A stretch of DNA of 45,179 nt from Rhodocyclaceae bacterium (GTDB lineage Bacteria > Pseudomonadota > Gammaproteobacteria > Burkholderiales > Rhodocyclaceae), in NCBI GenBank assembly GCA_025353195.1, contig JANXRC010000097.1:1-45179 (forward strand). The letters run 5' to 3'. Below, in pieces: positions 2,108-44,387 of the stretch (the first letter of the stretch is position 1; the number at the start of each line of letters is the position of its first letter). The notes under the pieces were generated by a model. That model did no database searches. It was not told the origin of the DNA and was given only the letters and a program-made list of their open reading frames with translations. Both the position numbers and the translations under genes were made by a program.

Positions 2108-4498
2108 ATGCCGGCCATGCGCCTTTTCGTCCTCGCCTTCGCTTGCGGTGTCTGGCTGTTGCAGCAGCACGCGGCACTGCCCGCCACGCCCTGGCTTGCG
2201 GGCTTCGCCTTCGGCGCTCTGCTGGTGCTGGCGCTGCGAAGCCGGTTACGGGAGTCGGCGCTCGCGGTACGCCGCTTCATTGCACCGGCAATGCTTGTCG
2301 CCGCAGGCGCCGCGCTGGGTTTCGCCTGGGCGGCGAGCTTCGCCCATCTGCGTCTGGCGGACGAACTGCCGGCGGCCATCGAAGGGCGCGACATCGAGTT
2401 GAGCGGCGTCGTAGCCGGCTTGCCGCAGGCGCTGGAGCGCGGCGTGCGCTTCGAGTTCGATGTGGAACAGGCAGTGTTCGGCGTGCCGCCGCATATCTCG
2501 CTGGCCTGGTATCGCGGCCGCGATGATGCGGATGACGAAGCGTCGTCGCAGGTCCCGGTCCGTGCCGGCGAACGCTGGCGCTTCACGGTGCGGCTGAAGC
2601 GCCCGCATGGCAATTTCAATCCGCACGGCTTCGACTACGAAGCATGGCTGTTCGAGCGCAACATCCGCGCCACCGGCTATGTCCGGCCGCGCAGCGCGGA
2701 ACGCCTCGACGCCAATGTGTGGCGGCCGGCCTACATGGTCGAAATGCTGCGCGAGACCATTCGCGATCGCTTTCGCGCTGCGCTGCCCGATGCGCCCTAC
2801 GCGGGGATTCTGATAGCGCTGGCGGTAGGCGACCAGCAGGCGATCGATGCCGATCTGTGGCAGACCTTCGCCCGCACCGGAATCACGCACCTGATGAGCA
2901 TCTCCGGGCTGCACATCACCATGTTCGCCGGCCTGGCCTATGCACTGACCAACTGGCTGTGGCGGCGTTCGGCGAAGTTGCCCTTGCTGCTTCCGGCGCA
3001 GCATGCGGCGGCGGCCGGCGGCTTCCTCGCGGCGTTCTGCTATTGCCTGCTGGCCGGCTTCGCAGTGCCGGCCCAGCGCACCCTCTACATGCTCGGAGTG
3101 GTGGCTGCCGCTCGTCTGTGGGGACGCGAACTGGCGGCCTCGCGCGTGCTGCTGCTGGCACTGCTGCTGGTGTTGTTGCTCGATCCGTGGGCAGTGCTGG
3201 CGGCCGGCTTCTGGCTGTCCTTCGGCGCGGTGGCGCTGCTGTTTCACATTGGCAGCGGGCGGTTGGGGCCGGCGCACTGGCTGGTCGAATGGGGGCGTGC
3301 GCAGTGGGCCGTTACGCTGGGCATGTTGCCGGCGTTGCTGGCCCTGTTCCAGCAGTTCTCGCTGGTCTCGCCGCTGGCCAACGCGGTAGCGATTCCCGTC
3401 GTCAGTTTCGTCATCACGCCGCTGGTACTGGCCGGCGCCTTGCCCTTTCTCGATCCGCTGTTGATCCTCGCGCATCTCATCACGGCTTGGCTGATGGCGT
3501 TTATTGATTGGCTCGCCGGGCTGCCGCTGGCCATGTGGCAGCAAGCCGCGCCGCCGCCGTGGGCGGTACTGCTGGCGCTGGCCGGCGGGGTCTGGCTGCT
3601 GCTGCCGCGCGGCTTTCCGGCGCGGTGGCTGGGGCTGCTGGCATTTCTGCCGCTATTGACGGTGGTGCCGCCGCGTCCGGCGTCCGGTGGGGCCGAAGTC
3701 ACCGTGCTCGATGTCGGTCAGGGTCTGGCGGTTCATGTCCAGACCGCGACGCACGATCTGCTGTTCGACGCGGGGCCGGCCTTTTCGGCGGACGCCGACA
3801 GCGGCAACCGCATCATCGCACCCTATCTGCGGGCGATGGGCGTGCGCGGACTGGATGCGCTGGTGATCAGCCATGCCGACAAGGATCACGAGGGCGGTGC
3901 GGCGTCGGTGCTGGCGGCGCTGCCGGTGGATATCCTGAAGAGTTCGCTGCCTTTCGAGCACGTCCTGTCGGCCCAACCGGTGCCGCAGGAGCCATGCCGC
4001 GACGGGGATGGCTGGAACTGGGACGGCGTGCGCTTCGACATGCTGCATCCTGGAGCCGAGCCGCTTTCGCGCAAGACCAACGACGTGAGTTGCGTGCTGC
4101 ACGTGACGGCGGGAGGCAGGTCGATACTGCTGACGTCGGACATCGAGGCCATTTCGGAAAGAGATATGCTCGAACGCTATCCGGTCACTCTGGCCGCGGA
4201 CGTGATGACGGTACCGCATCACGGCAGCCGGACTTCGTCGACGCCCGGGTTCATCGCCGCCGTCGCGGCGCGCGATGTGATCTTCCCGGTCGGCTACCGC
4301 AACCATTACGGACATCCGAAGGAAGACGTCGTTGCACGTTATGTGCAAAGCGGCGCGCGCCTGCATCGCACGGATGTCGACGGCGCGGTTCGGGTCGGCT
4401 TGGGCAGCGCAGGCGTCACCTTCAGTCATGAACGCGAGGTGCGGCGGCGCTACTGGCACGCTCGGGCGCTTGAAATCGGCGCACAATCGGCGCCATGA
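2108..4498 (+). CDS. comEC: ComEC/Rec2 family DNA-uptake channel protein
   Basis: A 796-aa inner-membrane protein predicted to pass single-stranded DNA into the cytoplasm during natural transformation. Domain order: N-terminal helices and a soluble DUF4131 region (about 30-200); the Competence core (about 220-500) with the hallmark HLMSISGLHITMFAGL near residue 261; then a metallo-beta-lactamase-like domain (about 525-780) with VLDVGQG, FDAG, HADKDHEGG (H589, D591, D593, H594) and VPHHGSRTS. The second lactamase histidine is Asp here, as is common in ComEC. I choose ATG 2108 rather than ATG 2117 because AGGGA at 2099-2103 fits it; that site lies in the preceding tandem repeat. The last bases overlap the srkA start (ATGA). 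A copy of the dispersed 22-bp motif lies inside at 2253. Confidence 0.95.
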   Translation: MPAMRLFVLAFACGVWLLQQHAALPATPWLAGFAFGALLVLALRSRLRESALAVRRFIAPAMLVAAGAALGFAWAASFAHLRLADELPAAIEGRDIELSGVVAGLPQALERGVRFEFDVEQAVFGVPPHISLAWYRGRDDADDEASSQVPVRAGERWRFTVRLKRPHGNFNPHGFDYEAWLFERNIRATGYVRPRSAERLDANVWRPAYMVEMLRETIRDRFRAALPDAPYAGILIALAVGDQQAIDADLWQTFARTGITHLMSISGLHITMFAGLAYALTNWLWRRSAKLPLLLPAQHAAAAGGFLAAFCYCLLAGFAVPAQRTLYMLGVVAAARLWGRELAASRVLLLALLLVLLLDPWAVLAAGFWLSFGAVALLFHIGSGRLGPAHWLVEWGRAQWAVTLGMLPALLALFQQFSLVSPLANAVAIPVVSFVITPLVLAGALPFLDPLLILAHLITAWLMAFIDWLAGLPLAMWQQAAPPPWAVLLALAGGVWLLLPRGFPARWLGLLAFLPLLTVVPPRPASGGAEVTVLDVGQGLAVHVQTATHDLLFDAGPAFSADADSGNRIIAPYLRAMGVRGLDALVISHADKDHEGGAASVLAALPVDILKSSLPFEHVLSAQPVPQEPCRDGDGWNWDGVRFDMLHPGAEPLSRKTNDVSCVLHVTAGGRSILLTSDIEAISERDMLERYPVTLAADVMTVPHHGSRTSSTPGFIAAVAARDVIFPVGYRNHYGHPKEDVVARYVQSGARLHRTDVDGAVRVGLGSAGVTFSHEREVRRRYWHARALEIGAQSAP
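2253..2274 (+). repeat. Dispersed 22-bp motif, copy in comEC
   Basis: Core AGTCGGCGCT followed by CGCGGTACGCCG. It lies in the variable N-terminal part of comEC. Confidence 0.6.
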
Positions 4499-5484
4499 CT
4501 TCAAGCGATGCGGTTCCTTTTGCCGGACTGACTCCGGAGCGTATTCTCGATGCCGTGGAAAGCGTCGGCTTCCGCTGCGACGGCGCCCTGATGGCGCTCA
4601 ACAGTTACGAAAACCGCGTCTGGCAGATCGGCATCGAGGACAGCGCTCCGGTGATTGCCAAGTTCTATCGCCCGGGGCGCTGGAGCGATGCGCAGATCGG
4701 CGAGGAGCACGCCTTTACCGCGGCCATGGTGGCGGATGAACTGCCCGTGGTGGCACCACTGGTCATTGGGGGGAAGACCTTGTCGGCGCACGGCGGATTC
4801 CGTTTTTCGGTTTTTCCGAAACAGGGCGGGCGCGCGCCGGAATTCGGCGAACCGCAGATCCTGGAATGGATGGGGCGGCTGATGGCTCGCATACATTTGG
4901 TGGGCGCGCGCGCTCCGTTCGCGGTGCGCGAAACGCTGGACATACATCGTTTTGGCGTCGATTCGCGCGACTGGCTGCTGGCCAACCGCGTGATCCCGGA
5001 GGAACTGGAACCGGTCTGGCAGGGCGTTGCCGATCAGGCGCTGGAAGGCGTGCGTAACTGCTACGCACGCGCCGGGAAAGTCGAGCACCTGCGTCTGCAC
5101 GGCGACTGCCACGCCGGCAACGTGCTGTGGACGCAGGATGGCCCGCACTTTGTCGACTTCGATGATGCCCGCATGGGGCCGGCGATCCAGGATTTGTGGA
5201 TGCTGCTTTCCGGTGATGCGGAGGAAATGGGGAGGCAGTTCGGGCATGTACTGGCCGGCTACGAAACCTTCCGTGAATTCGATGACCGCGAGTTGCAGTT
5301 GGTCGAAGCCCTGCGCACGCTGCGCCTGATGCATCATTCGGCCTGGCTGGCGCGGCGCTGGCATGATCCGGCGTTCCCGGCGGCGTTTCCGTGGTTCGCG
5401 ACGAATCGCTATTGGGAAGAGCGCATTCTCGAACTGCGCGAGCAGATCGCGGTGATGCAGGAGTCGGCGCTGGTGCCACGGTGA
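4495..5484 (+). CDS. srkA: Stress response kinase A, SrkA/RdoA (YihE) type
   Basis: A 329-aa protein of the APH/choline-kinase-like fold. The family phosphorylates serine/threonine and protects cells in envelope and oxidative stress. Visible features are LMALNSYENRVWQIG with the following IAKFYRPGRWS (nucleotide-binding lysine), the catalytic loop LHGDCHAGNVLW, and the metal-binding VDFDDARMGPAIQDLWML. Length matches the E. coli protein (328 aa). It is translationally coupled to comEC through a four-base overlap, a pairing I cannot explain functionally. The 3' end (ESALVPR) is made from a copy of the dispersed AGTCGGCGCT motif that extends over the stop codon. Confidence 0.9.
   Translation: MTSSDAVPFAGLTPERILDAVESVGFRCDGALMALNSYENRVWQIGIEDSAPVIAKFYRPGRWSDAQIGEEHAFTAAMVADELPVVAPLVIGGKTLSAHGGFRFSVFPKQGGRAPEFGEPQILEWMGRLMARIHLVGARAPFAVRETLDIHRFGVDSRDWLLANRVIPEELEPVWQGVADQALEGVRNCYARAGKVEHLRLHGDCHAGNVLWTQDGPHFVDFDDARMGPAIQDLWMLLSGDAEEMGRQFGHVLAGYETFREFDDRELQLVEALRTLRLMHHSAWLARRWHDPAFPAAFPWFATNRYWEERILELREQIAVMQESALVPR
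5462..5483 (+). repeat. Dispersed 22-bp motif, copy at end of srkA
   Basis: Core AGTCGGCGCT followed by GGTGCCACGGTG. It ends within the srkA stop codon region. See the finding on the dispersed motif. Confidence 0.7.
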
Positions 5485-5485
5485 G

Positions 5486-5503
5486 GGGGGCGCAAGCGCC
5501 CCC
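5486..5503 (+). terminator. Hairpin directly after srkA
   Basis: GGGGGCG and CGCCCCC pair around CAAG two bases after the stop codon. There is no U-tract behind it, so it may be only a weak terminator or an mRNA 3'-end stabiliser. Confidence 0.4.
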
Positions 5504-5518
5504 GTCGGGGAATTGCAG

Positions 5519-5632
5519 GCCATCCCCCCAACCCCCTTCCCGGGGAAGGGGGTGACTGTAGGTTTGCCGCCCCTTGCCGTGGCTCTGTTGAGCCATCCCC
5601 CCGCCCCCTTCCCGGGGAAGGGGGTGACTGTA
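5519..5632. repeat. Two copies of a GC-rich palindromic intergenic repeat
   Basis: Copies at 5519-5560 and 5592-5632 share GCCATCCCCCC, then the palindrome CCCCCTTCCCGGGGAAGGGGG split by its own centre, then TGACTGTA. Both are in the same orientation. This resembles short REP-like intergenic palindromes; no transposase gene is nearby. Confidence 0.85.
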
Positions 5633-5636
5633 TTGG

Positions 5637-5660
5637 GCGGGCTTTGCCCGCATTTGTTTT
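5637..5660 (+). terminator. Rho-independent terminator ahead of the hydrolase gene
   Basis: The stem GCGGGC/GCCCGC with loop TTT is followed by ATTTGTTTT. It ends the srkA transcript 12 bases upstream of the next start codon, so the hydrolase would need readthrough or a promoter inside the repeat region. Confidence 0.55.
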
Positions 5661-5671
5661 GAGAGGGAAAC

Positions 5672-6532
5672 ATGGAAATGCGTGAAGGAAAGGTGAAGTG
5701 TCTCAGCGCTGCGGGGTTCCATCACATGGCTTATGTGGAGTGGGGCGATGCCGCCAATCCGAAGGTACTGGTCTGCGTGCACGGGCTGACGCGCTGCGCG
5801 CGAGATTTCGACTTTCTGGCGCAGGCGCTGGCCGACGATTACCGGGTGGTCTGCCCGGACGTGGTGGGGCGCGGACGCAGCGACTGGCTGCGCAACAAGT
5901 CGCTGTACGGACTGGAACAATACTGTGCCGACATGACGACCCTGCTGGCGCGGCTCAATGTGGAGACCGTGCATTGGGTCGGCACCTCGATGGGTGGCTT
6001 GATCGGCATGGTAATGGCATCCCAGCCGGAAAGCCCGATCACGCGGCTCGTGCTGAATGATGTCGGCCCGATGATTACTGTTGCTTCACTGGTCCGTATT
6101 GGGGAGTATCTGGGCAATGCGCCGCGCTTCGACAGCATCGAACAGGCAGAGGCTTTCGTGCGGGTCGTTTCAGCGCCCTTCGGCCGCTTTTCCGATGCGC
6201 AGTGGCGGCACCTGACAGTGCATGTGACGCGAACCGCAGCCGACGGCAAGGTGGAGTTCGCCTACGACCCGGGCATAGTTGTGCATTTTCGCGAACTGCA
6301 GGAATCGGGCGGCGGCAAGGACATCGAACTATGGCCGTTTTACGACGGCATTGGCTGTCCGACGCTGTTGCTGCGCGGCGAGACATCCGACTTGCTGACG
6401 CATGATGCGGCTTTGCAAATGAGTCGGCGCGGACCGCGTGCGACGCTGGTCGAAGTACCCGGCGTCGGCCACGCGCCAATGCTGATGGATGACTCGCAAG
6501 TTGCACCGGTGCGCGGCTTTCTCCTCGCATGA
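5672..6532 (+). CDS. Alpha/beta hydrolase
   Basis: A 286-aa alpha/beta-hydrolase-fold enzyme. The oxyanion-hole strand is VCVHGLTRCARDFDFLA, the nucleophile elbow is GTSMGG (near residue 110), a catalytic acid is likely in RGETSDLL and the histidine is in VPGVGHAPML. No N-terminal signal is visible, so it is probably cytosolic. The substrate is unknown; the family includes esterases, C-C hydrolases and haloperoxidase-like proteins. ATG 5672 follows GAGAGGG at a suitable distance. It stands alone between a terminator-like hairpin and the AOR operon 120 bases downstream. Confidence 0.8.
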   Translation: MEMREGKVKCLSAAGFHHMAYVEWGDAANPKVLVCVHGLTRCARDFDFLAQALADDYRVVCPDVVGRGRSDWLRNKSLYGLEQYCADMTTLLARLNVETVHWVGTSMGGLIGMVMASQPESPITRLVLNDVGPMITVASLVRIGEYLGNAPRFDSIEQAEAFVRVVSAPFGRFSDAQWRHLTVHVTRTAADGKVEFAYDPGIVVHFRELQESGGGKDIELWPFYDGIGCPTLLLRGETSDLLTHDAALQMSRRGPRATLVEVPGVGHAPMLMDDSQVAPVRGFLLA

Positions 6533-6598
6533 TATAGGGGTATTGTCGGGTGTCGCAGTGCAGCATCAAAAATTTCGATAGCAATATTTTCTGCGGCA

Positions 6599-6604
6599 TA
6601 CAAT
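6599..6604 (+). promoter_or_regulatory. Possible -10 box for the AOR operon
   Basis: TACAAT lies 48 bases upstream of the aorA start in an AT-rich stretch (6563-6605) unlike its GC-rich surroundings. No convincing -35 was found, so an activator may be needed. The aorA ribosome site GAGGAGG is at 6641-6647. Confidence 0.35.
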
Positions 6605-6651
6605 AGGCAGGTTTTCGCATATCCCGGAAATAGCCAAAAAGAGGAGGCATC

Positions 6652-7131
6652 ATGCAGAAATCGTTGCACATCGACCCCAGTAAATGCACGGGCTGTCTGC
6701 AGTGCGAGATGGCCTGTTCCTACGAGAACTACGGAGTGTTCAACATCTCTAGGTCGCGCATCAAGGTGTTCAACTTCGAGCACGAAGGGCGCAAGGTTCC
6801 CTACACCTGCACCCAGTGTGCCGAAGCCTGGTGCATGAATGCCTGTCCGGTCGATGCCATTCGCATTGATGCCGCCACCGGCGCCAAGGTGGTGCACGAG
6901 GATGCTTGCGTAGGCTGCAAGGTCTGCACCATCGCCTGCCCGTTTGGCACGGTCAACTACGTGGCCGACACCGGAAAGGTGCAGAAGTGCGACCTCTGCG
7001 GCGGCGATCCCGCCTGCGCCACGGCCTGTCCCACTGCTGCCATCACCTACGTCGATGCCGACTGGACTGGCCTCGACAAGATGCGCCAGTGGGCCGGCAA
7101 GACCGACACTCAACCGCGCGCCAGCGCCTAA
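6652..7131 (+). CDS. aorA: AOR electron-transfer subunit with four [4Fe-4S] clusters
   Basis: A 159-aa polyferredoxin. Sixteen cysteines form four binding motifs: C12-C15-C18-C22, C53-C56-C61-C65-P, C86-C89-C92-C96-P and C113-C116-C122-C126-P, the arrangement of the HycB/DmsB-type four-cluster electron carriers. In AorABC enzymes of Aromatoleum the AorA subunit of this size carries electrons between the tungsten subunit AorB and the FAD subunit AorC, and stacks into filaments. A strong GAGGAGG precedes the ATG. The catalytic gene begins 10 bases after its stop. There is no signal peptide, so the complex is cytoplasmic. Confidence 0.9.
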   Translation: MQKSLHIDPSKCTGCLQCEMACSYENYGVFNISRSRIKVFNFEHEGRKVPYTCTQCAEAWCMNACPVDAIRIDAATGAKVVHEDACVGCKVCTIACPFGTVNYVADTGKVQKCDLCGGDPACATACPTAAITYVDADWTGLDKMRQWAGKTDTQPRASA

Positions 7132-7141
7132 GGAGACAGAC

Positions 7142-8989: not shown

Positions 8990-9002
8990 ACGCGGCACTG
9001 CA

Positions 9003-9041: not shown

Positions 9042-9121
9042 CGGCCGCTGCATTGCACCTCCATGCAGGCGCCGCTGCATGAGCCTTTACTGAAGCTTCG
9101 CTGTCATTCGAGGAGTCCGCT

Positions 9122-12173: not shown

Positions 12174-12191
12174 TGGCTGGTGATGAACAGG

Positions 12192-12213
12192 AGTCGGCGC
12201 TGCCGCGCTCTGC
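12192..12213 (+). repeat. Dispersed 22-bp motif, most degenerate copy
   Basis: Core AGTCGGCGCT intact, but the following 12 bases (GCCGCGCTCTGC) do not match the consensus. It is intergenic, upstream of the SRP RNA. Confidence 0.5.
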
Positions 12214-12268
12214 GTGCCTGGGATTCCGCTTCGCGGGCAGGCAACGGCGGCCCGGTGGCGAAAGCTGC

Positions 12269-13111: not shown

Positions 13112-14752
13112 ATGAGTTATCAGGTCCTTGCCCGCAAGTGGCGCCCCAAGTCCTTCGCTACCCTGGTGGGGCAGGAGCACGTCGTGCGGGCGCTGACCCA
13201 CGCGCTGGATCAGAACCGGCTGCACCACGCCTACCTTTTCACCGGTACTCGCGGGGTGGGCAAGACTACGCTGGCCCGCATCATGGCCAAGGCCCTGAAT
13301 TGCGAAGCCGGCGTCAGTTCAACGCCCTGCGGCATCTGTTCGGCCTGCATGGAGATCGATAGCGGTCGCTTCATCGATTACATAGAACTTGATGCGGCGT
13401 CGAATCGCGGCGTCGACGACATGACCGCTTTGCTGGAGCGCGCCACCTACGCGCCGACCATGGGGCGCTACAAGGTCTATGTCATCGACGAAGTTCACCA
13501 GCTTTCCGGGCATGCCTTCAATGCGATGTTGAAGACGCTGGAAGAGCCGCCGGAGCACGTCAAGTTTATTTTGGCAACTACCGATCCGCAAAAGATTCCC
13601 GTTACCGTGCTGTCGCGTTGCCTGCAGTTCAACCTGAAGCAGATGCCGCCGACGCTCATCGTCGATCATCTGTCGCACGTGCTGGAGGCCGAGGGCGTTG
13701 CGTTCCAACCTGGCGCCCTGCGTCATCTGGCAAAGGGTGCGGCGGGAAGCATGCGCGATGCGCTTTCGCTGCTCGACCAGGCCATCGCCCACGGTGCCGG
13801 CAAGGTGGAAGACGAGGGCGTGCGTGCCATGCTCGGTACGGTGGGCGACGAACACCTGTTTGCGTTGCTCGACGGCCTGGTCGCACAGGACGTGCAGGCC
13901 ATGCTCGAAGTGGCCAAGCTGATGGACGTGCGCAGCCTGTCGTTTGATGGTGGCCTGCAGGAACTGTCCACGCTGTTCCATCGCATTGCGCTGGCTCAAT
14001 TCGCCCCCGAGGCGCTGCTCGACGAAGCCGAGCGCAGTCGATTGGCGCCCTACGCGCAGGCGTTGGATGCCGAGTACCTGCAACTGGCCTACCAGATTGC
14101 CATTCACGGACGGGATGAACTCTCGTTGGCACCGGATGACTATGCCGGCTTCGTAATGACATTGCTGCGGCTGCATGCATTTCGGCCGGAGCGTGCCGGT
14201 GCGGTCAAAGTGGCAGCCAAAGCGACGACCAAGGGGGCGGCTGCGCCGGCGCCAGTGCGCACGGCACCGCCTGCCATGCCGACTCCGGCACCAGCCCCGT
14301 CCAGCGCCGTCCCGTCAGCGCCGACTCCCGCGGTACCGGTAGCGCCTGTCCCGGCAACCGCAGGTGCAGCACCGGCGGAAGAGGACTGGCATGCGCTGGT
14401 GGCGCGCCTGCCTCTGAGCGGCATGTCCAGGCAACTGGCCCAGCACTGCGAATTGTCGGAGCGCACCGAGTCGGCGATCCGCTTGCGCTTGTCGCCGGTG
14501 CATAAGCATCTGCTCGGCAAGCCCCAGCAGGACAAGCTGCAAAGCGAATTGCAGGCATTTTACGGACGCCCGCTGCGTCTCGAAATCGATGTGGCGGAAC
14601 TCGAGACCGAAACGCCGGCCGAACGCAGCCGCAATCAGCAGCGCGAACGCCAGGAACGCGCCATTGCCTCGATCGAGCAAGACCCCTTCGTGCGCGATGT
14701 GGTGGACTTGTTCGATGCGAGCATCGACGAATCAACGATCAAACCCGTTTAA
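13112..14752 (+). CDS. dnaX: DNA polymerase III subunit tau/gamma
   Basis: A 546-aa clamp-loader ATPase. Walker A is GTRGVGKT (45-52), the zinc cysteines are C64, C73, C76 and C79, the DEAD-like box is VIDEVH near 126, and the sensor-1 segment is [20 protein letters not shown]. An Ala/Pro-rich linker (about 365-425) is followed by the C-terminal tau domain that contacts the polymerase alpha subunit and DnaB. I found no A-AAA-AAG slippery site, so a separate gamma product is not indicated by the E. coli mechanism. No Shine-Dalgarno precedes the ATG. The order dnaX-ybaB-recR is conserved in proteobacteria. A reverse copy of the dispersed 22-bp motif codes for part of the linker. Confidence 0.97.
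14305..14326 (-). repeat. Dispersed 22-bp motif, copy in the dnaX linker
   Basis: On the minus strand: core AGTCGGCGCT followed by GACGGGACGGCG. Within the Ala/Pro-rich linker of DnaX. Confidence 0.65.
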
Positions 14753-23095: not shown

Positions 23096-23143
23096 AGGCG
23101 CATCGTCCGCGTCTGCATTTTGGTTCACCTCGGCGCAACGCCA

Positions 23144-23575
23144 ATGAAGTCCACCAAGCCCTACCTGATCCGCGCCATTCATGAATGGTGCGCGGATCAG
23201 GGCTTTACGCCCTATCTGGCGGTCAAGGTGGATGCGACGACGCGGGTGCCTCGCGAATTCGTCAAGGATGGCGAGATCGTCCTCAATGTCGGCCTCGAAG
23301 CCACCCACCAGTTGCTGATGGGCAACGAGGAAATTACCTTTCAGGCGCGTTTCGGCGGACGCGCTTTCCCGGTTGTCGTGCCCATCGAGCGGGTTTCCGC
23401 GATCTACGCCAGCGAGAATGGCGAAGGCATGGCGTTTGAAGTCACCGAGAAGCCGGCAGTCGCCGCTGGCGAGTCGCCGAACGTGAGCAAGGAGGAGGAG
23501 GCATCTTCCACCGTATCACCAGCGCCGACTCCCGAGCGCTCTGCGGGGCGGCCTGTTCTTACCCGCGTCAAGTAG
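23144..23575 (+). CDS. sspB: ClpXP adaptor SspB
   Basis: A 143-aa adaptor that delivers ssrA-tagged proteins to ClpXP. The N-terminal domain (STKPYLIRAIHEWCADQGFTPYLAVKVD ... FGGRAFPVVVPIERVSAIYA) is followed by a flexible linker (about 100-133) and the ClpX-binding tail GRPVLTRVK. ATG 23144 is preferred to an upstream in-frame start since it begins at the family's usual KSTKPYLI. The reverse strand of the linker contains one copy of the dispersed 22-bp motif. Confidence 0.92.
   Translation: MKSTKPYLIRAIHEWCADQGFTPYLAVKVDATTRVPREFVKDGEIVLNVGLEATHQLLMGNEEITFQARFGGRAFPVVVPIERVSAIYASENGEGMAFEVTEKPAVAAGESPNVSKEEEASSTVSPAPTPERSAGRPVLTRVK
23509..23530 (-). repeat. Dispersed 22-bp motif, copy in the sspB linker
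   Basis: On the minus strand: core AGTCGGCGCT followed by GGTGATACGGTG. It codes for linker residues of SspB. Confidence 0.7.
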
Positions 23576-26714: not shown

Positions 26715-26754
26715 CCTGCACCCTTTCCCAGCCTCTTTGCCGACCCCTGCTTCC

Positions 26755-28734
26755 ATGCCTGTTATTTCAATTGATCGTGCCTGTCTTGCCTACGGGCATG
26801 TTGCTCTTCTTGATCACGCCGCCATGCAAATCGATGCCGGCGAGCGCATCGGGCTGATCGGCCGCAACGGCAGCGGCAAATCCAGCCTGCTGAAGGCTTT
26901 GGCCGGTCTCGGTTCGCTCGATGACGGCGAGGTATGGAGGGAACCCGGCCTCTCCATCGCCTACGTGCCGCAGGAACCGGAATTTGCTACTCACGACACG
27001 GTCTTCGAAGCCGTGGCTGCAGGATTGGGCGACGTGGCGCGAGTGCTCGCGGAATATCATGAGGTGACCCACACAGTCGGCGCTGGCGATACGGCGACCA
27101 TGGACCGCATGCAGGATCTCCAGGCGCAACTGGAGGCGAACGACGGCTGGCGGCTGAATTCGCGCATCGAGCAGGCCATTTCGCGCCTCGCGCTGGATGG
27201 CGACGCCCGAGTTGATGCGCTTTCCGGCGGCGGCAAGAAGCGCGTCGCCCTGGCCCGCGCGCTGGTGGCCGAGCCCGAACTGCTGCTGCTCGACGAACCG
27301 ACCAATCACCTCGACGTGGATGGCATCCTCTGGCTGGAGGACCTGTTGCGCGGCTATCAGGGGGCGATCATGGTCATCACCCACGACCGGGTTTTCCTCG
27401 ATGCCGTGGCGACGCGCATCATCGAACTGGATCGCGGCAAGCTGGTGAGTTTTAGTTCCGACATCACGCCCGCACGCGGGCATGAGTCTTCACTGAATCT
27501 GCGATTTCCCGGCCGCTTCGTCGAGTACCAGCAACGCAAGGAATTCATGCTCAACGAAGAGGCTCTGGCGAATGCTCGCGCCGACAAGATGCTGGCGCAG
27601 GAGGAAATCTGGATCCGCAAGGGTGTCGAAGCGAGGCGCACGCGCAGTGTCGGGCGCGTGCAGCGCCTCGAAGCTTTGCGTGCGGCACGGGCGGCGCGGC
27701 GCGAGCAGTTGGGCAAAGTCGATTTTCAGCTGGTGCGCGGCGATGCCTCCGGCAAGCTGGTGGCCGAACTCGAAAATGTCAGCAAGCGATTTGTGACAGC
27801 CGCGGGCGAAAAAATCGTGGTGCGCGATTTCTCCTGCCGCATCCTGCGCGGCGACAAGGTGGGCCTGATCGGCGCCAACGGCACGGGCAAGACCACGCTG
27901 CTGCGCCTGATCCTGGGTCAGCTATCGGCCGACTCCGGAGAACTGCGGTTGGGTAGCAAGATCGAGGTGGCCTACTTCGACCAGTTCCGCACCCAGCTCG
28001 ATCCCGAAGCGCCCTTGCGCGAAGTGATCAGCCCCGGCTCGGACTACGTCGAGATCGGCGGCGCGAAGAAGCACGTGATCGGCTATCTCGAGGATTTCCT
28101 GTTCGCCCCGGAACGCGCCCGTTCACCGGTGAAGTCGCTGTCCGGCGGCGAGCGCAACCGGCTGTTGCTGGCGCGCCTGTTCGCGCGACCGGCCAACGTG
28201 CTGGTGCTCGACGAGCCGACCAACGATCTCGACATCGAAACCCTGGAATTGCTCGAAGCCCTGCTGCAGGACTACTCGGGAACGGTGTTTCTGGTCAGCC
28301 ACGACCGGGCCTTTCTCGACAACGTGGTGACGCAGACCATTGCCAGCGAAGGCGACGGGCGCTGGAAGGAATATGTCGGCGGCTACAGCGACTGGTTGCG
28401 CCAGCGACCGGCAGGCGGCGCGGCGCGCTTCGATGCCACGGGTGGCGTGGACGCGAAGCCGGCCTCACGAGTCGGCGCTGGCGACACGGCGAAAGCCAAG
28501 CCCGCCGGGCGCAAGAAGCTCAGCTTCAAGGAGCAGCGCGAGCTGGAGCAGTTGCCCGATCGCATCGCCGCGCTGGAAGCCGAGCAGGCCGTCTTGCAGA
28601 ACCGCATGGCTGATCCGGCCTTCTATCAGGGGCCGCCAGATGCGGTGCGCGAGTTGCAAACCCGGCTGGCTGCCATCGATGCCGAAATCGATGCCGCCAT
28701 GATCCGCTGGGAGGCCCTGGAGGCCAAGGGCTGA
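26755..28734 (+). CDS. uup: ABC-F ATPase, Uup type
   Basis: A 659-aa protein with two ABC ATPase domains and no membrane segments, the hallmark of ribosome-acting ABC-F proteins. First domain: Walker A GRNGSGKSS, signature LSGGGKKRVALARAL, Walker B LLLLDEPTNHLD. Second domain: GANGTGKTT, LSGGERNRLLLARLF, VLVLDEPTNDLD. An inter-domain linker (about 245-325) and a C-terminal coiled-coil (LSFKEQRELEQLPDRIAAL onward) identify Uup rather than EttA. Uup binds DNA or ribosomes and affects transposon excision. An in-frame TTG lies 18 bases upstream, but ATG 26755 begins at the conserved VISIDRACLAYG. Two copies of the dispersed 22-bp motif code for the same peptide, VGAGDTA, in variable segments. Confidence 0.93.
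   Translation: MPVISIDRACLAYGHVALLDHAAMQIDAGERIGLIGRNGSGKSSLLKALAGLGSLDDGEVWREPGLSIAYVPQEPEFATHDTVFEAVAAGLGDVARVLAEYHEVTHTVGAGDTATMDRMQDLQAQLEANDGWRLNSRIEQAISRLALDGDARVDALSGGGKKRVALARALVAEPELLLLDEPTNHLDVDGILWLEDLLRGYQGAIMVITHDRVFLDAVATRIIELDRGKLVSFSSDITPARGHESSLNLRFPGRFVEYQQRKEFMLNEEALANARADKMLAQEEIWIRKGVEARRTRSVGRVQRLEALRAARAARREQLGKVDFQLVRGDASGKLVAELENVSKRFVTAAGEKIVVRDFSCRILRGDKVGLIGANGTGKTTLLRLILGQLSADSGELRLGSKIEVAYFDQFRTQLDPEAPLREVISPGSDYVEIGGAKKHVIGYLEDFLFAPERARSPVKSLSGGERNRLLLARLFARPANVLVLDEPTNDLDIETLELLEALLQDYSGTVFLVSHDRAFLDNVVTQTIASEGDGRWKEYVGGYSDWLRQRPAGGAARFDATGGVDAKPASRVGAGDTAKAKPAGRKKLSFKEQRELEQLPDRIAALEAEQAVLQNRMADPAFYQGPPDAVRELQTRLAAIDAEIDAAMIRWEALEAKG
27075..27096 (+). repeat. 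Dispersed 22-bp motif, first copy in uup
   Basis: Core AGTCGGCGCT followed by GGCGATACGGCG; encodes VGAGDTA. Confidence 0.75.
28470..28491 (+). repeat. Dispersed 22-bp motif, second copy in uup
   Basis: Core AGTCGGCGCT followed by GGCGACACGGCG; encodes VGAGDTA in the linker ahead of the C-terminal coiled coil. Confidence 0.75.
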
Positions 28735-37197: not shown

Positions 37198-37218
37198 GAG
37201 CGCGCTCCCTGAGCTGAC

Positions 37219-37380: not shown

Positions 37381-38919
37381 TCAGCGCTGAGTCGCGGCCG
37401 CATTGTGCGGTATCGGATCCAGCAGCTTGAGCCGTTGCACCTTGCCCGAGGGCCCGCGCGGCAGGTCGCTGACGAAACGGAACAGCTTGGGCGTCTTGTA
37501 GGCGCCGAGTTCGCGCCGGCAGTGTTCGCGCAGTTCCGCCTCGCTGCAGGCGGTGTCCGCTCGGAGCACGACGCAGGCCAGGATTTCTTGGCCGTACTGC
37601 GTGTCGGGAATGCCGACCGCGGCCGCCTCGGCGACGGCCGGGTGGGTGAGCAGCGCCTCGTCGATTTCGCGCGGGGCGATGTTCTCGCCGCCCTTAATGA
37701 TCAGCTCCTTGATGCGTCCGGTGACGAACAAGAATCCATCCGCGTCCATATAGCCCAGATCGCCGGTGTGCAGCCAGCCGTCCACTTCCAGGGTTCGCGC
37801 AGTCTCGACCGGATCCTTGTAGTAGCAGGTCATCACATTCGGCCCGCGCACCATGATCTCGCCGATTTCGCCGGCCGGAATCGCCGTACCGCCAGCGCCG
37901 ACTATCTTCGCTTCGTTGCCGAACGCCGGGCCGGGGCTGCCGACCTTGCGCTGCTGCGGTGCCAGCGGGTTGGAGAAGCAGGGTGCGGCGGTCTCGGTGA
38001 GCCCCATGGTCTCGATGATGCCGATGCCGAATTTCTTCTCGAAGGCCAGATGCTGTGCCGGTGGCAGCGGGGCCGAGGCCGAGCGGCAGAAGCGTAGTGC
38101 CGAGGCGTCCAGGTCCAGCGCCGCGAGGTCGGGCCCGTTGAGCAGGTAGGCAATGATGGTCGGCACGACATTGAGCCAGGTGCAGTGTTGTGCAATCGCC
38201 ACTTGCCAGAAGTTGTTACTGCTGAAGCGATGCGGCAGCACCAGGCTGCCGCCATGGATCAGCGGCGAGATTGCGGTGACTACCTGTGCGTTGATGTGAT
38301 AGAGCGGCAGTACGGCCATCACACGGTCGTCGGGGCCGAGCTGGTGGGCGTCGGAGACGAACTCGCCGCCCGACACCACGGCGCGCTGCGACAGCACGAC
38401 GCCCTTGGGTTTGCCGGTAGTGCCGGAGGTGTACATCATCAGCGCCGCATCGCCCGCTCCGGGTGCCTGCGGCATCGCGCCGTCGGCACTCGCTGCCGGC
38501 ACGAACTCTTCGGCGTCGACGTCGCAGACGATCATCTTCGGCGGCCGGGCGAGATTGGCGGCGGCCAGCTGCAGGCGCTCGAGCTGGTCCGGCGCGACGA
38601 ACACGATCTCGGCATCGCTGTGCTCGAGAACGTAACTGAGCTGCGAGGGCTGCGCCAGCATGTTGAGCGGGGTGATGCAGTAGCCGCCGTACATGGCGCC
38701 GATGAACAGGCGGCAGGTCTGGTAACCGTTGTGCATCAGCAGCGCCACCTTGGCGCCGGGCTGGATGCCCTGTTCCAGCAGATAGGCGGCCAGGTGCTGG
38801 GACGCCGCCTGCAGACCGAGGAAACTCATGGCGAGTCCGGTTTCAGGCGCGATCAGGTAGGTCGCGGTGGGACGCTGCGTCGCCTGCCGGTCGACGTGCG
38901 CGCGTATGGTGTGCAGCAT
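37381..38919 (-). CDS. sauT: Acyl-CoA ligase, probable sulfoacetate-CoA ligase
   Basis: A 512-aa AMP-forming ligase. The P-loop-like YTSGTTGKPKG, the A5 motif METMGLTETAAP-type (GIIETMGLTETAAPCFSNP), the hinge WLHTGDLGYMDADGFLFVTGRIKELIIKGGENIAPREID and the catalytic lysine at GPSGKVQR are all intact. Context gives the proposed substrate: it is four bases behind an acylating aldehyde dehydrogenase, in one strand with an MFS transporter and opposite an IclR regulator, the gene set of sauSTU/sauR in Cupriavidus necator. The assignment rests on context, not on substrate-pocket residues. A reverse copy of the dispersed 22-bp motif codes for VGAGGTA near residue 340. Confidence 0.75.
   Translation of the reverse strand: MLHTIRAHVDRQATQRPTATYLIAPETGLAMSFLGLQAASQHLAAYLLEQGIQPGAKVALLMHNGYQTCRLFIGAMYGGYCITPLNMLAQPSQLSYVLEHSDAEIVFVAPDQLERLQLAAANLARPPKMIVCDVDAEEFVPAASADGAMPQAPGAGDAALMMYTSGTTGKPKGVVLSQRAVVSGGEFVSDAHQLGPDDRVMAVLPLYHINAQVVTAISPLIHGGSLVLPHRFSSNNFWQVAIAQHCTWLNVVPTIIAYLLNGPDLAALDLDASALRFCRSASAPLPPAQHLAFEKKFGIGIIETMGLTETAAPCFSNPLAPQQRKVGSPGPAFGNEAKIVGAGGTAIPAGEIGEIMVRGPNVMTCYYKDPVETARTLEVDGWLHTGDLGYMDADGFLFVTGRIKELIIKGGENIAPREIDEALLTHPAVAEAAAVGIPDTQYGQEILACVVLRADTACSEAELREHCRRELGAYKTPKLFRFVSDLPRGPSGKVQRLKLLDPIPHNAAATQR
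37882..37903 (-). repeat. Dispersed 22-bp motif, copy in the CoA ligase gene
   Basis: On the minus strand, in the sense of the gene: core AGTCGGCGCT followed by GGCGGTACGGCG; encodes VGAGGTA. Confidence 0.75.
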
Positions 38920-38923
38920 GGAC

Positions 38924-40351: not shown

Positions 40352-40429
40352 ATGCGGGAACTCCTCAATTCATTCGACATTCGATTGACCATGGTGGCCG
40401 TGGTGCGTGGCATCGTGGCCGAGGTATGG

Positions 40430-41683
40430 CTAATCGCAAGCTTTCCGTGTCGGATCGACGAACATGGCGCAGATCGCACCTATGCCCAGCAACCCGGCGG
40501 AAATCAGGAATGGCACTTCGTAACTTCCAGTGCGGTCGATCAGCACACCAAAAACTACAGGAGAAATCATCCCGGCAACGCCGAAACCGGTATTCATCAT
40601 GCCGCCGGCAGTACCCGCGAAACGTCCCGCGATGTCTATCGGCAAACTCCACAGAACGGCATTTGTCAGCTCAAGGAAAAAGAACGATGCCGAAAGCAGC
40701 AGAACCGCAGTGATGGGAGCAGTTGCATAGATCGCCGGCAGGATGAATGCTAGCGCACCACCGAGTCCCAGCACCAGCATGAACCGCCGAGCAAGCTTCA
40801 GGTTCCCGGTGCGCTTGTATATGGTGTCGGAGACGACCCCCCCAAGCGTATCGCCGATCACTCCCGCCATTAGCGGGAGTGTCGCAAACAAGGCCATTTG
40901 CTTGAGGTCAAAGCCGCGCGAATCCTTGAGGTAAGAAGGCAGCCAAGTCAGGAACACCCATAACGACCAGCCGTAGCAAAAATCTATGAAAGTTACGAGG
41001 CCCATGCAACGGATCATTCGTGCCCAGGGCGTCCGTTGTGATTCGACCTCTTTGGTTGCCTTCTCGTCAAAGCCGATTTCCTTCAGTTCTTCCGGCTTGA
41101 TCCACTTATGCTCCACAGGCGTGTTGCGGAACAGCCAGACATACAGCCCCGTCCAAAGCAAGCTGACCGCGCCGAGGATGAAGAACGATTCGCGCCAGCC
41201 GGACATGGCAACGATCGCCAGGACGATAGGCGGGGTGATGGCGCCGCCGAGGCGTGCGAAGCTGTGCGTAATACCCTGGGCAAAACCGCGTTCGCTTGGC
41301 GGGAACCAGTGGGTCATCGCACGGGTTGCCGAAGGGAAGGCACCACCTTCGCCGATGCCGAGAAGTACGCGAAAAACGATCAGGGATCCCAATCCCCATG
41401 CAAAGCCCGTGAGGATGGTGGCCACGGCCCAGATGATGCTGAGAATTGCGAGAACGAGACGCGGGCCGAACTTGTCGGAAAGCCAGCCACCAAAGATCTG
41501 CATCGCTGCGTACGGGTACGCGAACGCGGAGAAGATGAGGCCGAGTTCCGTGGCCGTGAGCCCCATTTCCTTTCTTAGCAGGGGTGCGGCAACCGAAATA
41601 TTTACACGATCGACGTAGGCGATGAAGTACATCAGGCACAGCACCGCGAGAATCGTATAACGAACCTTAAACATCTTCTTCAT
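40430..41683 (-). CDS. sauU: MFS transporter (ACS family), probable sulfoacetate importer
   Basis: A 417-aa, about 12-helix MFS protein of the anion:cation symporter type. The N-terminus FKVRYTILAVLCLMYFIAYVDRVNISVAAPLL is the ACS-family mark, with GWLSDKFGPR in the loop 2-3 motif and LLGIGEGGAFPSATRAMTHWFP in helices 4-5. The frame begins at an upstream TTG, but ATG 41683 is preceded by AGGAG and is the better start. It is the first gene of the minus-strand operon. Relatives carry sugar acids, aromatic acids and sulfonates; the sulfoacetate call comes from the operon. Confidence 0.78.
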   Translation of the reverse strand: MKKMFKVRYTILAVLCLMYFIAYVDRVNISVAAPLLRKEMGLTATELGLIFSAFAYPYAAMQIFGGWLSDKFGPRLVLAILSIIWAVATILTGFAWGLGSLIVFRVLLGIGEGGAFPSATRAMTHWFPPSERGFAQGITHSFARLGGAITPPIVLAIVAMSGWRESFFILGAVSLLWTGLYVWLFRNTPVEHKWIKPEELKEIGFDEKATKEVESQRTPWARMIRCMGLVTFIDFCYGWSLWVFLTWLPSYLKDSRGFDLKQMALFATLPLMAGVIGDTLGGVVSDTIYKRTGNLKLARRFMLVLGLGGALAFILPAIYATAPITAVLLLSASFFFLELTNAVLWSLPIDIAGRFAGTAGGMMNTGFGVAGMISPVVFGVLIDRTGSYEVPFLISAGLLGIGAICAMFVDPTRKACD

Positions 41684-41778
41684 GACTGGTCTCCTCAATT
41701 TGTTCTAACGTTGCTCCCATGCGTTCAGGGGCAGACGCTGTTTTTGTCTTGCGCGACAGCTTGGCTCATTGGATCAGA

Positions 41779-41805
41779 CTAAACGAGACCATGCGTCTCG
41801 TTTAG
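41779..41805. promoter_or_regulatory. Perfect 11-bp inverted repeat, candidate IclR operator
   Basis: CTAAACGAGAC (41779-41789), spacer CATGC, GTCTCGTTTAG (41795-41805). A further half-site GTCTCGTTT lies at 41857-41865 just ahead of the regulator gene. The position between divergent genes fits control of both the regulator and the transporter operon. Confidence 0.65.
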
Positions 41806-41856
41806 CTCCATAAGTGATGCATAAATCAATAAAACATCATCTTACTGATATTATTG

Positions 41857-41865
41857 GTCTCGTTT
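41857..41865 (+). promoter_or_regulatory. Third half-site GTCTCGTTT near the regulator promoter
   Basis: Same nonamer as the right arm of the palindrome at 41795, 62 bases (about six helical turns) downstream. A TATAAA follows at 41869-41874, just before the ribosome site and the ATG of the regulator. Confidence 0.45.
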
Positions 41866-41882
41866 CTTTATAAAGGTGATGC

Positions 41883-42674
41883 ATGCAAACCAGTCAGGAA
41901 AACTCCGCTGCGCTGCGTGCGTTTCGTGTACTCGAAACGCTTGCCGAATCATCGCGACCGCTGTCGCTGGCAGAGGTTGTCGATAAGATTGGGTTGCCCA
42001 AACAGACGATTCACCGCATTCTTAAACAAATGCAGGACAGCTGGCTGATAACGCGCAGCCCCGGTAGCCGCAACTACACTTGCTCGAGCCGGGTGAATCA
42101 CTTTGCGCTCAATGTCATGCTCAACTCGGGTGCCACGGCCGCGCGGCACGCAATTCTGAGCGACCTTGTCGAACAAATCGGCGAGACCTGCAACATAACC
42201 ATGTTGAGTGGAACCGATATCGTCTATATCGACCGGGTCGAGACCCAGTGGGCGCTGCGCGTGCATCTGCAGGCAGGATCGAGGGTGCCTCTGCACTGTA
42301 CCTCGTCGGGCAAACTGCTTCTGAGCCTGCTGCCCAAGGCCCAGCGAGAACGCTTGTTGCGGACTTTGCCGCTAGCCGCGATCTCGCAACAATCGATTAC
42401 CGATAGAACCGCATTACGCAAGGAACTGGAGCAGACACGACGTAGAAAGTTCGGCATCAACAATCAGGAAAACCTGCAGGGGATCATCGCCATCGCTGTC
42501 CCGATCATGCTTGACCGCAACCGTGCCTGCGCTGCGGTCGCGGTGCAAGCTCCGATCGCGCGCATGTCGCTCGAACAACTCCTTGCCCACTTGCCGGTGA
42601 TGAATGAGGCCGCCAGGCGGCTGAAGGAGACCTTCGTGGCCGATGCCAAGAGCCTGCGTGCCGGGTCTGAGTGA
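41883..42674 (+). CDS. sauR: IclR family transcriptional regulator
   Basis: A 263-aa regulator. The N-terminal winged helix (ALRAFRVLETLAESSRPLSLAEVVDKIGLPKQTIHRILKQMQ) is followed by the IclR effector domain (ISILGT-like stretch ETCNITMLSGTDIVYIDRVETQWALRVHL, then PLHCTSSGKLLLSLLP). It is divergent from the transporter-dehydrogenase-ligase operon with a perfect palindrome between. AAGGTG precedes the ATG. The divergent sauR of C. necator is the basis for the symbol; whether that protein is also of the IclR type I cannot check here. The gene ends 24 bases from the convergent cobT stop. Confidence 0.75.
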   Translation: MQTSQENSAALRAFRVLETLAESSRPLSLAEVVDKIGLPKQTIHRILKQMQDSWLITRSPGSRNYTCSSRVNHFALNVMLNSGATAARHAILSDLVEQIGETCNITMLSGTDIVYIDRVETQWALRVHLQAGSRVPLHCTSSGKLLLSLLPKAQRERLLRTLPLAAISQQSITDRTALRKELEQTRRRKFGINNQENLQGIIAIAVPIMLDRNRACAAVAVQAPIARMSLEQLLAHLPVMNEAARRLKETFVADAKSLRAGSE

Positions 42675-42698
42675 TGATCGACAGCCGGATACATGGAT

Positions 42699-44387
42699 CT
42701 AACGGTAGCCAATGAGTCGGGCAAGCTCGAAAAACACTGTGTTGTCGAGCCCACGTGAAAAGTCGGCGCTGACGGTACGGCGATAGAAGGGACTCAGGTC
42801 GACTCCTACGCTGAGGCCGATGATCTCAATGGCACCTTCGCGTTCGCGGCGGGCCACGATCTCCCGCAGATGCCGGTCCAGATAGAAGGTGTCGTTGGCG
42901 AGCGCGGTGGCGCTGTCCATCGGGCAGCCGTCGGAAATCACGATGAGGATGCGGCGGCCGGCGTCCTGCGCCAGCAGCCGGTCGCAGGCCCAGTCCACGG
43001 CCTCGCCGTCGATGCCCTCGCGGAACAGGTCGGCCTTGAACAGCGCGGCGATGTCGCCTCGCGAGCGCCGCCAGTTGCGCGTTGCATCCTTGAACACCAG
43101 GTGGCAGGTTTCGTTGAGGCGCCCCGGCCACGGCGGGCGGCCCTGGGCCAGCCATTCGCGATGGGGGCGGCCGCCGTTCCATGCGCCGGTGGTGAAACCC
43201 AGCAACTCGGTGTCGACGCCGACCATGTCGAGGCTGCGGACAAGGATGTCGGCCAGCGCCGCCACGGGCTCGATCACCCCCGTCATGGAGCCGGAACAAT
43301 CGATCAGCAGCGTGACCGCCGCATCCGCTGCGGGCTTTGCCCGCTCGCGCTTGAACACCCGGCTCTCGGCCGGCGAACTGACCAGTTGCGCCAGGCGGCG
43401 GCCATCGATGCGGCCGTCCTCCTCGCCGAACAGCCAGTCGTCGCGTAGCGGCTTGGCCAGGATGGCGCCGAACAGGCGGGCCAGACGCGGCACGTTGATG
43501 CCCTGCCGGGCGATGAAGGCATCGAGCCGCTCGCGGTACTCGCGCAGCAGCGCCTTGCGCACCAGCGTCGCGGCGGAGAGCTCGACGTCGTAGCGGGTGC
43601 TGTAGGCGCGATAGCCGTGACCGGATTCGCCCGGCGCCTTGCTCTCGCCGCCGGCCGCAAGCGGCATGGCGTGGACTTCCTCCTGGTCGAAGTCGAGCAG
43701 CAGGGCCAGGGCACGCGGGTTCTGCTCCGCAGCTTGCTCGCCGGCGGTGTCCTCCTGTTCCGCACGCACCATGGCGCCGACCCGGCGCGCGACGTCCAGC
43801 GCATGCGGCGCGAAGCGGGCCTGGTCGTGGCGCCAGCGGCGCATGCCCGCCAGCGCGGGACCGAGCGCGGGGGCGAGGCCGGCGCGCGTCGCCTCGATCA
43901 GGTCTTCGCTGTCTTCCGGCACCGGCAGGCCGTTCAGGCGCGACCAGCAGACCTGGGCCACGGTATGGAACAGGATGCCGATGCTGCTTTCGGTGACGCC
44001 CGACTCGTGGAACCGGCGCGACCAGGCCGCGAAACGCCGGTGCAGGTTGGCCGCCAGCCCCGGCATGGTTTCCGGCGCCAGGGTTTCCACGCGCAACTGT
44101 TCGAGCAGTTCGAAGACCAGGCGTTCGACCGGGTCGGGCGGGCAGTTCGCGCGGTGCAGCGCGGCATCGGAATGCATCAGGCGCAGCGCCATGCCGTCGG
44201 CACGGGCGCGCAGCGCCGGAAGGCTCTCCGCCTCGGTCTCGACGCGCAAGTGCGGCGCATACGTTCGCAACGGCCTTTCGCCGCGGTGCAGGAGGTGGCC
44301 GCTGTAGTGCAGTTCGCCGTCGCCGGTTAGCGCCCGCAGCGTGGCGGCGCAGGCCTCTTCCATCTTCTGCTGCCGGGGCAGGTTCAT
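42699..44387 (-). CDS. cobT: Cobaltochelatase CobT subunit
   Basis: A 562-aa protein with a C-terminal von Willebrand A domain: MIDAS residues D363, S365 and S367 (LLIDCSGSMTG) and later VISDGCPMDS. The N-terminal half (about 1-330) has the CobT-type helical region (HYSGHLLHRGERPLRTYAPHL) and an acidic middle (RAEQEDTAGEQAAEQ). With CobS it forms the AAA-type chaperone that drives CobN to insert Co2+ into hydrogenobyrinate diamide. The ATG overlaps the cobS stop (ATGA). The frame is open 32 codons upstream inside cobS, but this ATG is the coupled one. A copy of the dispersed 22-bp motif lies near the 3' end. No CobN is in the window. Confidence 0.85.
   Translation of the reverse strand: MNLPRQQKMEEACAATLRALTGDGELHYSGHLLHRGERPLRTYAPHLRVETEAESLPALRARADGMALRLMHSDAALHRANCPPDPVERLVFELLEQLRVETLAPETMPGLAANLHRRFAAWSRRFHESGVTESSIGILFHTVAQVCWSRLNGLPVPEDSEDLIEATRAGLAPALGPALAGMRRWRHDQARFAPHALDVARRVGAMVRAEQEDTAGEQAAEQNPRALALLLDFDQEEVHAMPLAAGGESKAPGESGHGYRAYSTRYDVELSAATLVRKALLREYRERLDAFIARQGINVPRLARLFGAILAKPLRDDWLFGEEDGRIDGRRLAQLVSSPAESRVFKRERAKPAADAAVTLLIDCSGSMTGVIEPVAALADILVRSLDMVGVDTELLGFTTGAWNGGRPHREWLAQGRPPWPGRLNETCHLVFKDATRNWRRSRGDIAALFKADLFREGIDGEAVDWACDRLLAQDAGRRILIVISDGCPMDSATALANDTFYLDRHLREIVARREREGAIEIIGLSVGVDLSPFYRRTVSADFSRGLDNTVFFELARLIGYR
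42761..42782 (+). repeat. Dispersed 22-bp motif, copy in cobT
   Basis: Core AGTCGGCGCT followed by GACGGTACGGCG; antisense to the cobT coding strand near its C-terminal codons. Confidence 0.75.

Follow-up and report, generated by a model that had tools for sequence, protein, structure and literature searches.

The window considered here, a stretch of 45,179 nucleotides on contig JANXRC010000097.1 of a Rhodocyclaceae bacterium (genome G000; 289 contigs that sum to 3,406,229 bases, completeness 99.5%), carries nine copies of a decamer, AGTCGGCGCT, six on the plus and three on the minus strand, which belong to a longer motif that we read as a putative DNA uptake sequence. The genes that carry or adjoin the copies are listed in Table 1. 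NCBIfam models score above cut-off for comEC (TIGR00361), the srkA-type kinase (NF008738), dnaX (TIGR02397) and sspB (NF008769). The name SrkA for the kinase gene at 4495-5484 comes from the first-pass annotation of this DNA. In the case of uup the best model, NF050005, scores 772 bits, under the cut-off of 900; the best model for the acyl-CoA ligase-like gene is also under its cut-off, and the open reading frame (ORF) at 42826-44475 has no match among NCBIfam models.

The first-pass annotation had listed nine decamers, and all were found exactly at the positions and on the strands that it gave. Its hand estimate of about 0.2 copies expected in 45 kb agrees with a computed 0.18 (standard deviation 0.44), and nine copies were reached in none of 100 dinucleotide shuffles. 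The similarity it described in the next 12 bases holds for eight of the nine copies, the exception being 12192, which runs into another repeat; in the comEC copy the tail, ...TACGCCG, deviates from the consensus. Both uup copies (27072 and 28467) do code VGAGDTA as it had said, and the copy at 5462 ends within the TGA stop codon of srkA (5482-5484).

Table 1. Copies of the 25-bp motif in the window and their gene context
Feature	Coordinates	Strand	Context
motif copy	2250..2274	+	near comEC start (gene 2108-4498, +); frame codes SAL
motif copy	5459..5483	+	3' end of srkA (gene 4495-5484, +)
motif copy	12189..12213	+	core kept; right half belongs to a different dispersed repeat, GCGCTCTGCGTGCCTGGGATTCCGCTTCGCGGGCAGG
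motif copy	14305..14329	-	Ala/Pro-rich part of dnaX (13112-14752, +), antisense; codes SAPTP
motif copy	23509..23533	-	near C-terminal end of sspB (23120-23575, +), antisense; codes PAPTP
motif copy	27072..27096	+	uup (26737-28734, +); codes VGAGDTA
motif copy	28467..28491	+	second copy within uup; codes VGAGDTA
motif copy	37882..37906	-	acyl-CoA ligase-like gene (37381-38919, -); codes VGAGGTA
motif copy	42758..42782	+	outside called genes; upstream of ATG of ORF 42826-44475 (-)

Two other repeats are present in the window. A dispersed repeat with ACCTG..CAGGT-like ends, GCGCTCTGCGTRCCTGGGATTCCGCTTCGCGGGCAGGYAAC, lies at about 12200-12240 and also in L014, L112, L146, L300, L314, L324 and L453, and is joined to the motif core in several of 10 distinct contexts. 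A tandem 42-bp repeat, GGGATACCGTCCCCGGCAAGAGCCAGGGACATACCCCACAA, is found in four copies at about 1930-2110, directly upstream of comEC.

With regard to the genome as a whole, G000 has 355 decamers (173 forward, 182 reverse), whereas the reversed control occurs 29 times. In samples of the complete congener G002, which is one contig 3,802,648 bases long, AGTCGGCGCT is the top over-represented decamer. In 43 stretches of G002 totalling 860 kb (with one 1-kb overlap that holds no site) it has 126 copies where an order-4 Markov model expects 7.1. The first-pass annotation had proposed a genome-wide count against a Markov model, and the counts are far over the control in G000 and over expectation in G002. 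Under the same model in G002 the ratio of observed to expected at 0, 1, 2 and 3 mismatches is 75, 2.9, 1.07 and 0.99 for the 12-mer AGTCGGCGCTGG, 17.8, 1.07, 0.91 and 0.97 for the 10-mer, and 1.93, 1.26, 1.03 and 1.03 for the reversed control.

The full motif is 25 bp long and bipartite, RRR-AGTCGGCGCT-GGCGNN-ACGGCG, and so begins three bases, rich in purines, before the decamer. In 30 aligned copies from G000 the borders are sharp, the motif running from about -3 to +21 and the bases beyond having background composition, and the profile of 101 copies from G000 and G002, R-A-R-AGTCGGCGCT-G-G(A)-C-G-R-N-ACGGCG-(A), has nothing conserved outside it. Of 24 sites in G002 with C in place of the last T of the decamer, 14 carry the tail, and this position is therefore relaxed.

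The decamer density in G002 is one per 6.8 kb, and 79 of the 126 copies are genic and 47 intergenic, which for a non-coding share of 15.7% is a 2.4-fold excess (p 4e-9) of intergenic copies. The genic copies use five of the six frames (one of them just once), with 48 in gene sense and 31 antisense, and the encoded peptides are unrelated between copies, for example VGAGDT, SAL, APT and SAD. The five frames, the intergenic copies and the unrelated peptides bear out the proposal of the first-pass annotation that this is a DNA-level signal and not a protein motif. A preference for gene ends, apparent in the first 36 genic copies, did not reach significance when 75 complete genes were considered (p 0.22).

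For comparison with the replication axis the terminus of G002 was set at 1.85 Mb; the GC skew of 20 samples switches sign between 1.73 and 1.90 Mb. No replication-strand bias was found, either for AGTCGGCGCTGGCGANACGGCG (51 leading and 49 lagging in the first 100 listed of 128 copies, 0 to 2.94 Mb) or for the 126 decamers (72 and 54, p 0.13). The spacing of the same 100 AGTCGGCGCTGGCGANACGGCG copies is exponential (coefficient of variation 1.00, Kolmogorov-Smirnov p 0.85) and their coverage even (p 0.34). The checks of strand bias and spacing suggested earlier for this motif have thus given no bias and random spacing, and a strand-polar chromosome-organisation site is contradicted by the absent bias. 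Two inverted pairs in G002, 39-40 bp apart, form perfect hairpins in which the arms match even at the variable positions.

The motif copies were also compared with orthologous sites in relatives, as had been suggested at the outset. At the first uup site 28 genomes (G000 included) align without gaps, 16 with the exact core and 12 with substitutions. For 13 genomes around uup there are 205 ungapped pairwise site alignments (143 exact, 62 with 1-6 core substitutions), 53 that are gapped and 57 that do not span the site, and in the ungapped set identity is 0.90 for the motif and 0.83 for the flanks, the pairs not being independent. BLAST may break at long gaps and could hide 25-bp gaps among the 57 non-spanning matches, and we therefore measured flank distances, meaning the gap between separately aligned flanks. 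Of 276 measured cells 179 are exactly 25 bp, 14 are at 46 bp (a 21-bp insert) and 12 at 10 bp; among the 228 that are well measured, with flank alignments ending near the site, 178 are exactly 25 bp and none is between -5 and +5. In G016, which has a full-length ComEC, the first uup site reads AAGGTCGGCGCCGGTGATGCGGCG. The motif copies evolve by substitution and not by insertion of a unit, the form with a 21-bp insert being a separate exception. Orthologous sites keep their length and differ by substitution, which contradicts the miniature mobile repeat that was one of the options in the first-pass annotation.

The longer form, AGT-TCCCGNAGGGACGCANNGCGCT-GGCGCTGGCGNNACGGCG, has 21 additional bases at a fixed position inside the core. 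This insert, TCCCGNAGGGACGCANNGCG, bears a hairpin and has a length that preserves the reading frame. The pattern AGTTCCCNNAGGGACGCNNNGCGC is found in 27 of 31 same-genus genomes, with up to 23 copies (G028) and no control matches. All 39 distinct contexts of GTTCCCNNAGGGA, 30 of them from pattern-selected loci, continue as the insert form, some with degenerate tails. The insert form is present at the second uup site (28467..28491) in four congeners (L272, L279, L287, L298) and at the sspB site in two (L324, L044). Possibly the 21-bp insert spreads inside the motif as a passenger.

Among 30 sampled genomes of the same genus 29 are enriched, with decamer counts of 92 to 665 where the reversed control gives 19 to 48, the sole unenriched congener being G016 (43 against 45). 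None of 30 genomes from other genera or families is clearly enriched, the largest counts being 41 against 45 and 28 against 23. The 22-mer AGTCGGCGCTGGCGNNACGGCG has at least one match in 96 of 395 family genomes and in 30 of 68 genera, and its reversed control has none in all 395. High 22-mer counts are confined to six of the 68 sampled genera (g1, g32, g43, g62, g70 and g88), and outside these six the maximum is 7 (G076). One exact 25-mer was found in at least 119 stretches of an 84,980-genome collection. Among the 80 listed with titles, the matches are in metagenome-assembled genomes, for the most part named Sulfuritalea, Rugosibacter, Rhodocyclaceae, Rhodocyclales or (uncultured) beta proteobacterium, together with one isolate titled Burkholderiaceae (several records) and one Gammaproteobacteria record (L032). 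The motif is a real, genome-wide and lineage-specific DNA signal.

Some of the stray copies in other genera are clustered, with all three copies of G183 within 4.1 kb, all three of G108 within 5.1 kb, and four of the seven in G076, a single-contig genome, within 20.3 kb. This suggests tracts received from motif-rich donors, with contamination possible in the fragmented genomes. For G016 and genera g3, g5, g6 and g7 no alternative motif was evident in samples of 178 kb and 180 kb, in which the top decamers were not followed further. In the g88 sample the over-represented decamers are dominated by a CRISPR-like array at about 4600-7200 of L443 (G228:C1), with 39 copies of a repeat containing GTTGTAGCTCCCTCTCTCACCCCGGATAGCTACAAT (as read from the first units) at a period of mostly 67 bp. 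Among IMG/VR viral contigs (L150-L269) the motif AGTCGGCGCTGRCRNNACGGCG is present in at least 120 stretches, host DNA, prophage and overlapping loci being counted together, and with the selecting copy left aside there is one decamer per 24 kb in these stretches and one per 12.7 kb in genome_contigs loci.

Within the motif-bearing genera there are clade dialects, in which one base is shifted at most copies, either from ACGGCG to ACGGCA or from CGGC to mainly CGGT. In genus g43 we counted G-tail copies by a strict pattern and A-tail copies by a slightly looser one. The G-rich genomes are, as G-tail/A-tail, G350 (281/37), G360 (252/45), G406 (259/37), G389 (238/27) and G259 (202/31), and the A-rich genomes G132 (2/228), G209 (1/276), G329 (7/257), G278 (35/232) and G072 (1/99). 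Intermediate counts are seen in G177 (108/245), G236 (145/171), G398 (103/190), G380 (105/108), G340 (45/56) and G318 (14/67). A view of g43 as part motif-free proved mostly wrong, several of the supposed negatives carrying the ACGGCA tail; G293 (0/0), G305 (3/0) and G370 (7/2) remain nearly motif-free. A 21-row ComEC tree includes 14 of the 19 genomes of g43. Its four G-tail genomes form one clade (support 100/100) and its four A-tail genomes another (100/99), and g43 has support of 81/91 without G293, which falls outside. On this single-gene tree the dialects follow phylogeny. The ComEC of G293 (L509), a genome without the motif, has a very long branch (1.1-1.2).

In the case of g32 the commoner form in G061 is AGTCGGTGCT, with 369 T-core matches by a looser pattern against 131 strict C-core matches genome-wide, and 10 against 6 when equal patterns were used in 100 kb. 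The same T-core and C-core searches gave 24 and 110 in G000, and 9 and 302 in G002. In G010 four distinct sites within about 45 kb (L326, L327, L275) read AGTAGACGC[CT] (AGTAGACGCY, then GG), a variant found in no other locus examined, and AGTAGACGC[CT]GG is possibly a further dialect. Both uup sites read AGTTGGCGCT in the low-count congeners G001, G015 and G027 (L285, L280, L281), a possible dialect seen at these two orthologous sites per genome. That one base has shifted at hundreds of loci in a clade argues more strongly than any other finding for a recogniser that acts on every copy.

All 46 genomes searched for ComEC have it, the ComP_DUS domain PF16732 is present in 47 of 48 and GspH in 29 of 30, with motif-free genomes among the carriers of each, and many of the PF16732 and GspH matches adjoin by coordinates, in a minor pilin cluster of PilE-FimT-PilW type. 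Candidate receptor pilins are thus present, and in the minor pilin clusters as read by eye none was seen to track motif or dialect. PF16732, GspH and ComEC were considered as discriminating genes and rejected, being present nearly everywhere, and FimT was rejected as the determinant of dialect. These genes make uptake possible without singling out a receptor.

The abundance, shape, taxonomic limits, strand neutrality, substitutional change and dialects of the motif, together with the presence of uptake genes, therefore lead us to read it as a putative DNA uptake sequence. We put the probability of this reading, which draws on genomic hallmarks, at about 0.78, and among the three options of the first-pass annotation (uptake sequence, chromosome-organisation site and miniature mobile repeat) it fits best. 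The motif would then be a genome-wide self-tag, recognised extracellularly by the type IV pilus uptake machine in natural transformation, with a minor pilin as the probable recogniser. It would raise uptake, so that motif-bearing DNA would be taken up preferentially and then recombined into the chromosome. Such biased transfer (molecular drive) could move tolerant places (intergenic DNA, protein linkers and gene ends) towards the consensus by substitution, and it is this drive rather than selection that would spread the motif. If the preference of the recogniser shifted in a lineage the copies would shift in concert, giving clade dialects, and lineages without the recogniser, of which G016 may be an example, would lack the consensus.

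Several points weigh against the uptake-sequence reading. The core density in G002 is well under the thousands of DNA uptake sequences (DUS) or uptake signal sequences (USS) per genome in the known families, and only 4 of the 126 copies are in inverted pairs, where PMC1939737 gives about 10% of uptake sequences as forming inverted repeats. Motif-free genomes have ComEC and PF16732 just as often, FimT lineages have no strict match to dialect, and part of the stray copies outside the six genera are single or scattered, as in G071 and G180. In the flank-distance analysis 312 of 588 cells lacked two colinear flanks, and 3 of the 276 measured cells, at -1, 0 or 2 bp, are possible clean absences, in which the flank alignments end far from the site. 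Most genomes are metagenome-assembled, and gene calls are from a simple in-house ORF caller.

As an alternative, the motif could be bound inside the cell by a protein that is nucleoid-associated, organises the chromosome or acts as a global regulator, and selection on chromosome function would then have spread it. A long asymmetric motif with two conserved blocks, in hundreds of copies along the chromosome, would suit such a protein, and if the protein co-evolved with its site it could also yield dialects. We think this unlikely, given that over the 2.94 Mb listed the copies are not restricted to any domain, are without strand bias and are randomly spaced, and that many copies are in coding sequence in both orientations. 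Further, high numbers are missing in 62 of the 68 sampled genera and in congener G016, and clustered stray copies in other genera would be unexpected. A Chi-like recombination hotspot or a KOPS-like replication-polar segregation signal would also be an oligomer over-represented across the chromosome; known Chi or KOPS are far shorter than 25 bp, and with no leading/lagging bias and abundance in just six of 68 genera we regard this as very improbable.

The case for a miniature mobile repeat inserting as a unit consists of the dispersal on both strands, the existence of the 21-bp-insert form and the three possible clean absences. It has to be set beside well-measured sites that are exactly 25 bp in 178 of 228 cells and never near 0, the 205 ungapped alignments with substitutions only, dialects that change one base at hundreds of copies, and no terminal repeats seen by eye, and we give it very little credence. 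For a protein-level motif or codon-pair effect, with VGAGDTA as a linker, it can be said that 34 of the 79 genic copies in G002 share one frame, and that in a smaller sample the 16 listed copies in the common frame all code VGA, 12 of them VGAG, with both uup copies in the window VGAGDTA. The use of five frames and both orientations, with 47 of 126 copies intergenic, leaves this scarcely credible.

Nowhere is the choice of kin DNA by bacteria clearer than with uptake sequences, which according to PMC12616744 (2025) are known from Neisseriaceae and Pasteurellaceae only. Our literature search found no report of an uptake sequence for Sulfuritalea or Rhodocyclaceae among the matches listed, and the matches listed for the ten letters of the decamer had unrelated titles. 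We think it likely that Rhodocyclaceae are a third family with a code of its own for recognising self DNA. This would be a bipartite uptake sequence of 25 bp in three or more, perhaps five, dialects that shifted across whole genomes inside single genera. Some members lack it, and a derived form, with a 21-bp hairpin insert in the core, may be a passenger of biased uptake. If this is true, a third case with dialect shifts between sister clades would make the co-change of recogniser and target, the sufficiency of molecular drive and the DNA-reading pilin testable. The motif-bearing bacteria are environmental Betaproteobacteria of lakes and groundwater, for which natural transformation would then be a route of gene flow and the motif a sequence handle for genetic tools.

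With regard to known systems, dRS3 and REP-type repeats resemble the motif in being dispersed and partly intergenic, and another repeat can fuse to the motif. Those repeats are palindromic or inserted elements, whereas the motif is non-palindromic and changes by substitution. The USS of Pasteurellaceae (Hin-USS AAGTGCGGT, Apl-USS ACAAGCGGT) have, like the motif, a core and an extended region, and come in two dialects; unlike the motif they are in Gammaproteobacteria, in thousands of copies per genome, and the core letters differ as judged by eye.

The DUS of Neisseriaceae (AT-DUS 5'-AT-GCCGTCTGAA-3', receptor ComP) are like the motif in being genome-wide, with intergenic inverted pairs (rare in the case of the motif), with dialects a few bases apart that follow phylogeny, with family genomes that have no obvious repeat, and with stray copies elsewhere. 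PMC3630211 describes eight DUS dialects that follow phylogeny, inverted pairs linked to terminators, stray dialect copies that indicate interspecies transfer, and five Neisseriaceae genomes without obvious DUS. The motif differs in being bipartite and 25 bp long, of other sequence, at lower density and in Rhodocyclaceae, and its receptor and its effect on uptake are putative. Only one of its halves, ACGGC(A/G) with (T/C)GCCGT as reverse complement, is similar by eye to the GCCGT of DUS, which may be chance; the invariant CTG of GCCGTCTGAA has no counterpart, the motif positions beside ACGGC being variable (also by eye). The tail ACGGCA (reverse complement TGCCGT) might share ancestry with neisserial DUS. 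As to origin, PMC1939737 infers point mutation. In PMC2397512 many recent DUS appear too diverged for point mutation, suggesting recombination. Known uptake sequences have no orientation bias and are commoner in non-coding DNA than expected (PMC1939737), and the motif shares with uptake sequences generally this lack of bias, the non-coding excess and change by point mutation. With inverted pairs rarer and density lower, it shows most of the testable genomic features of an uptake sequence.

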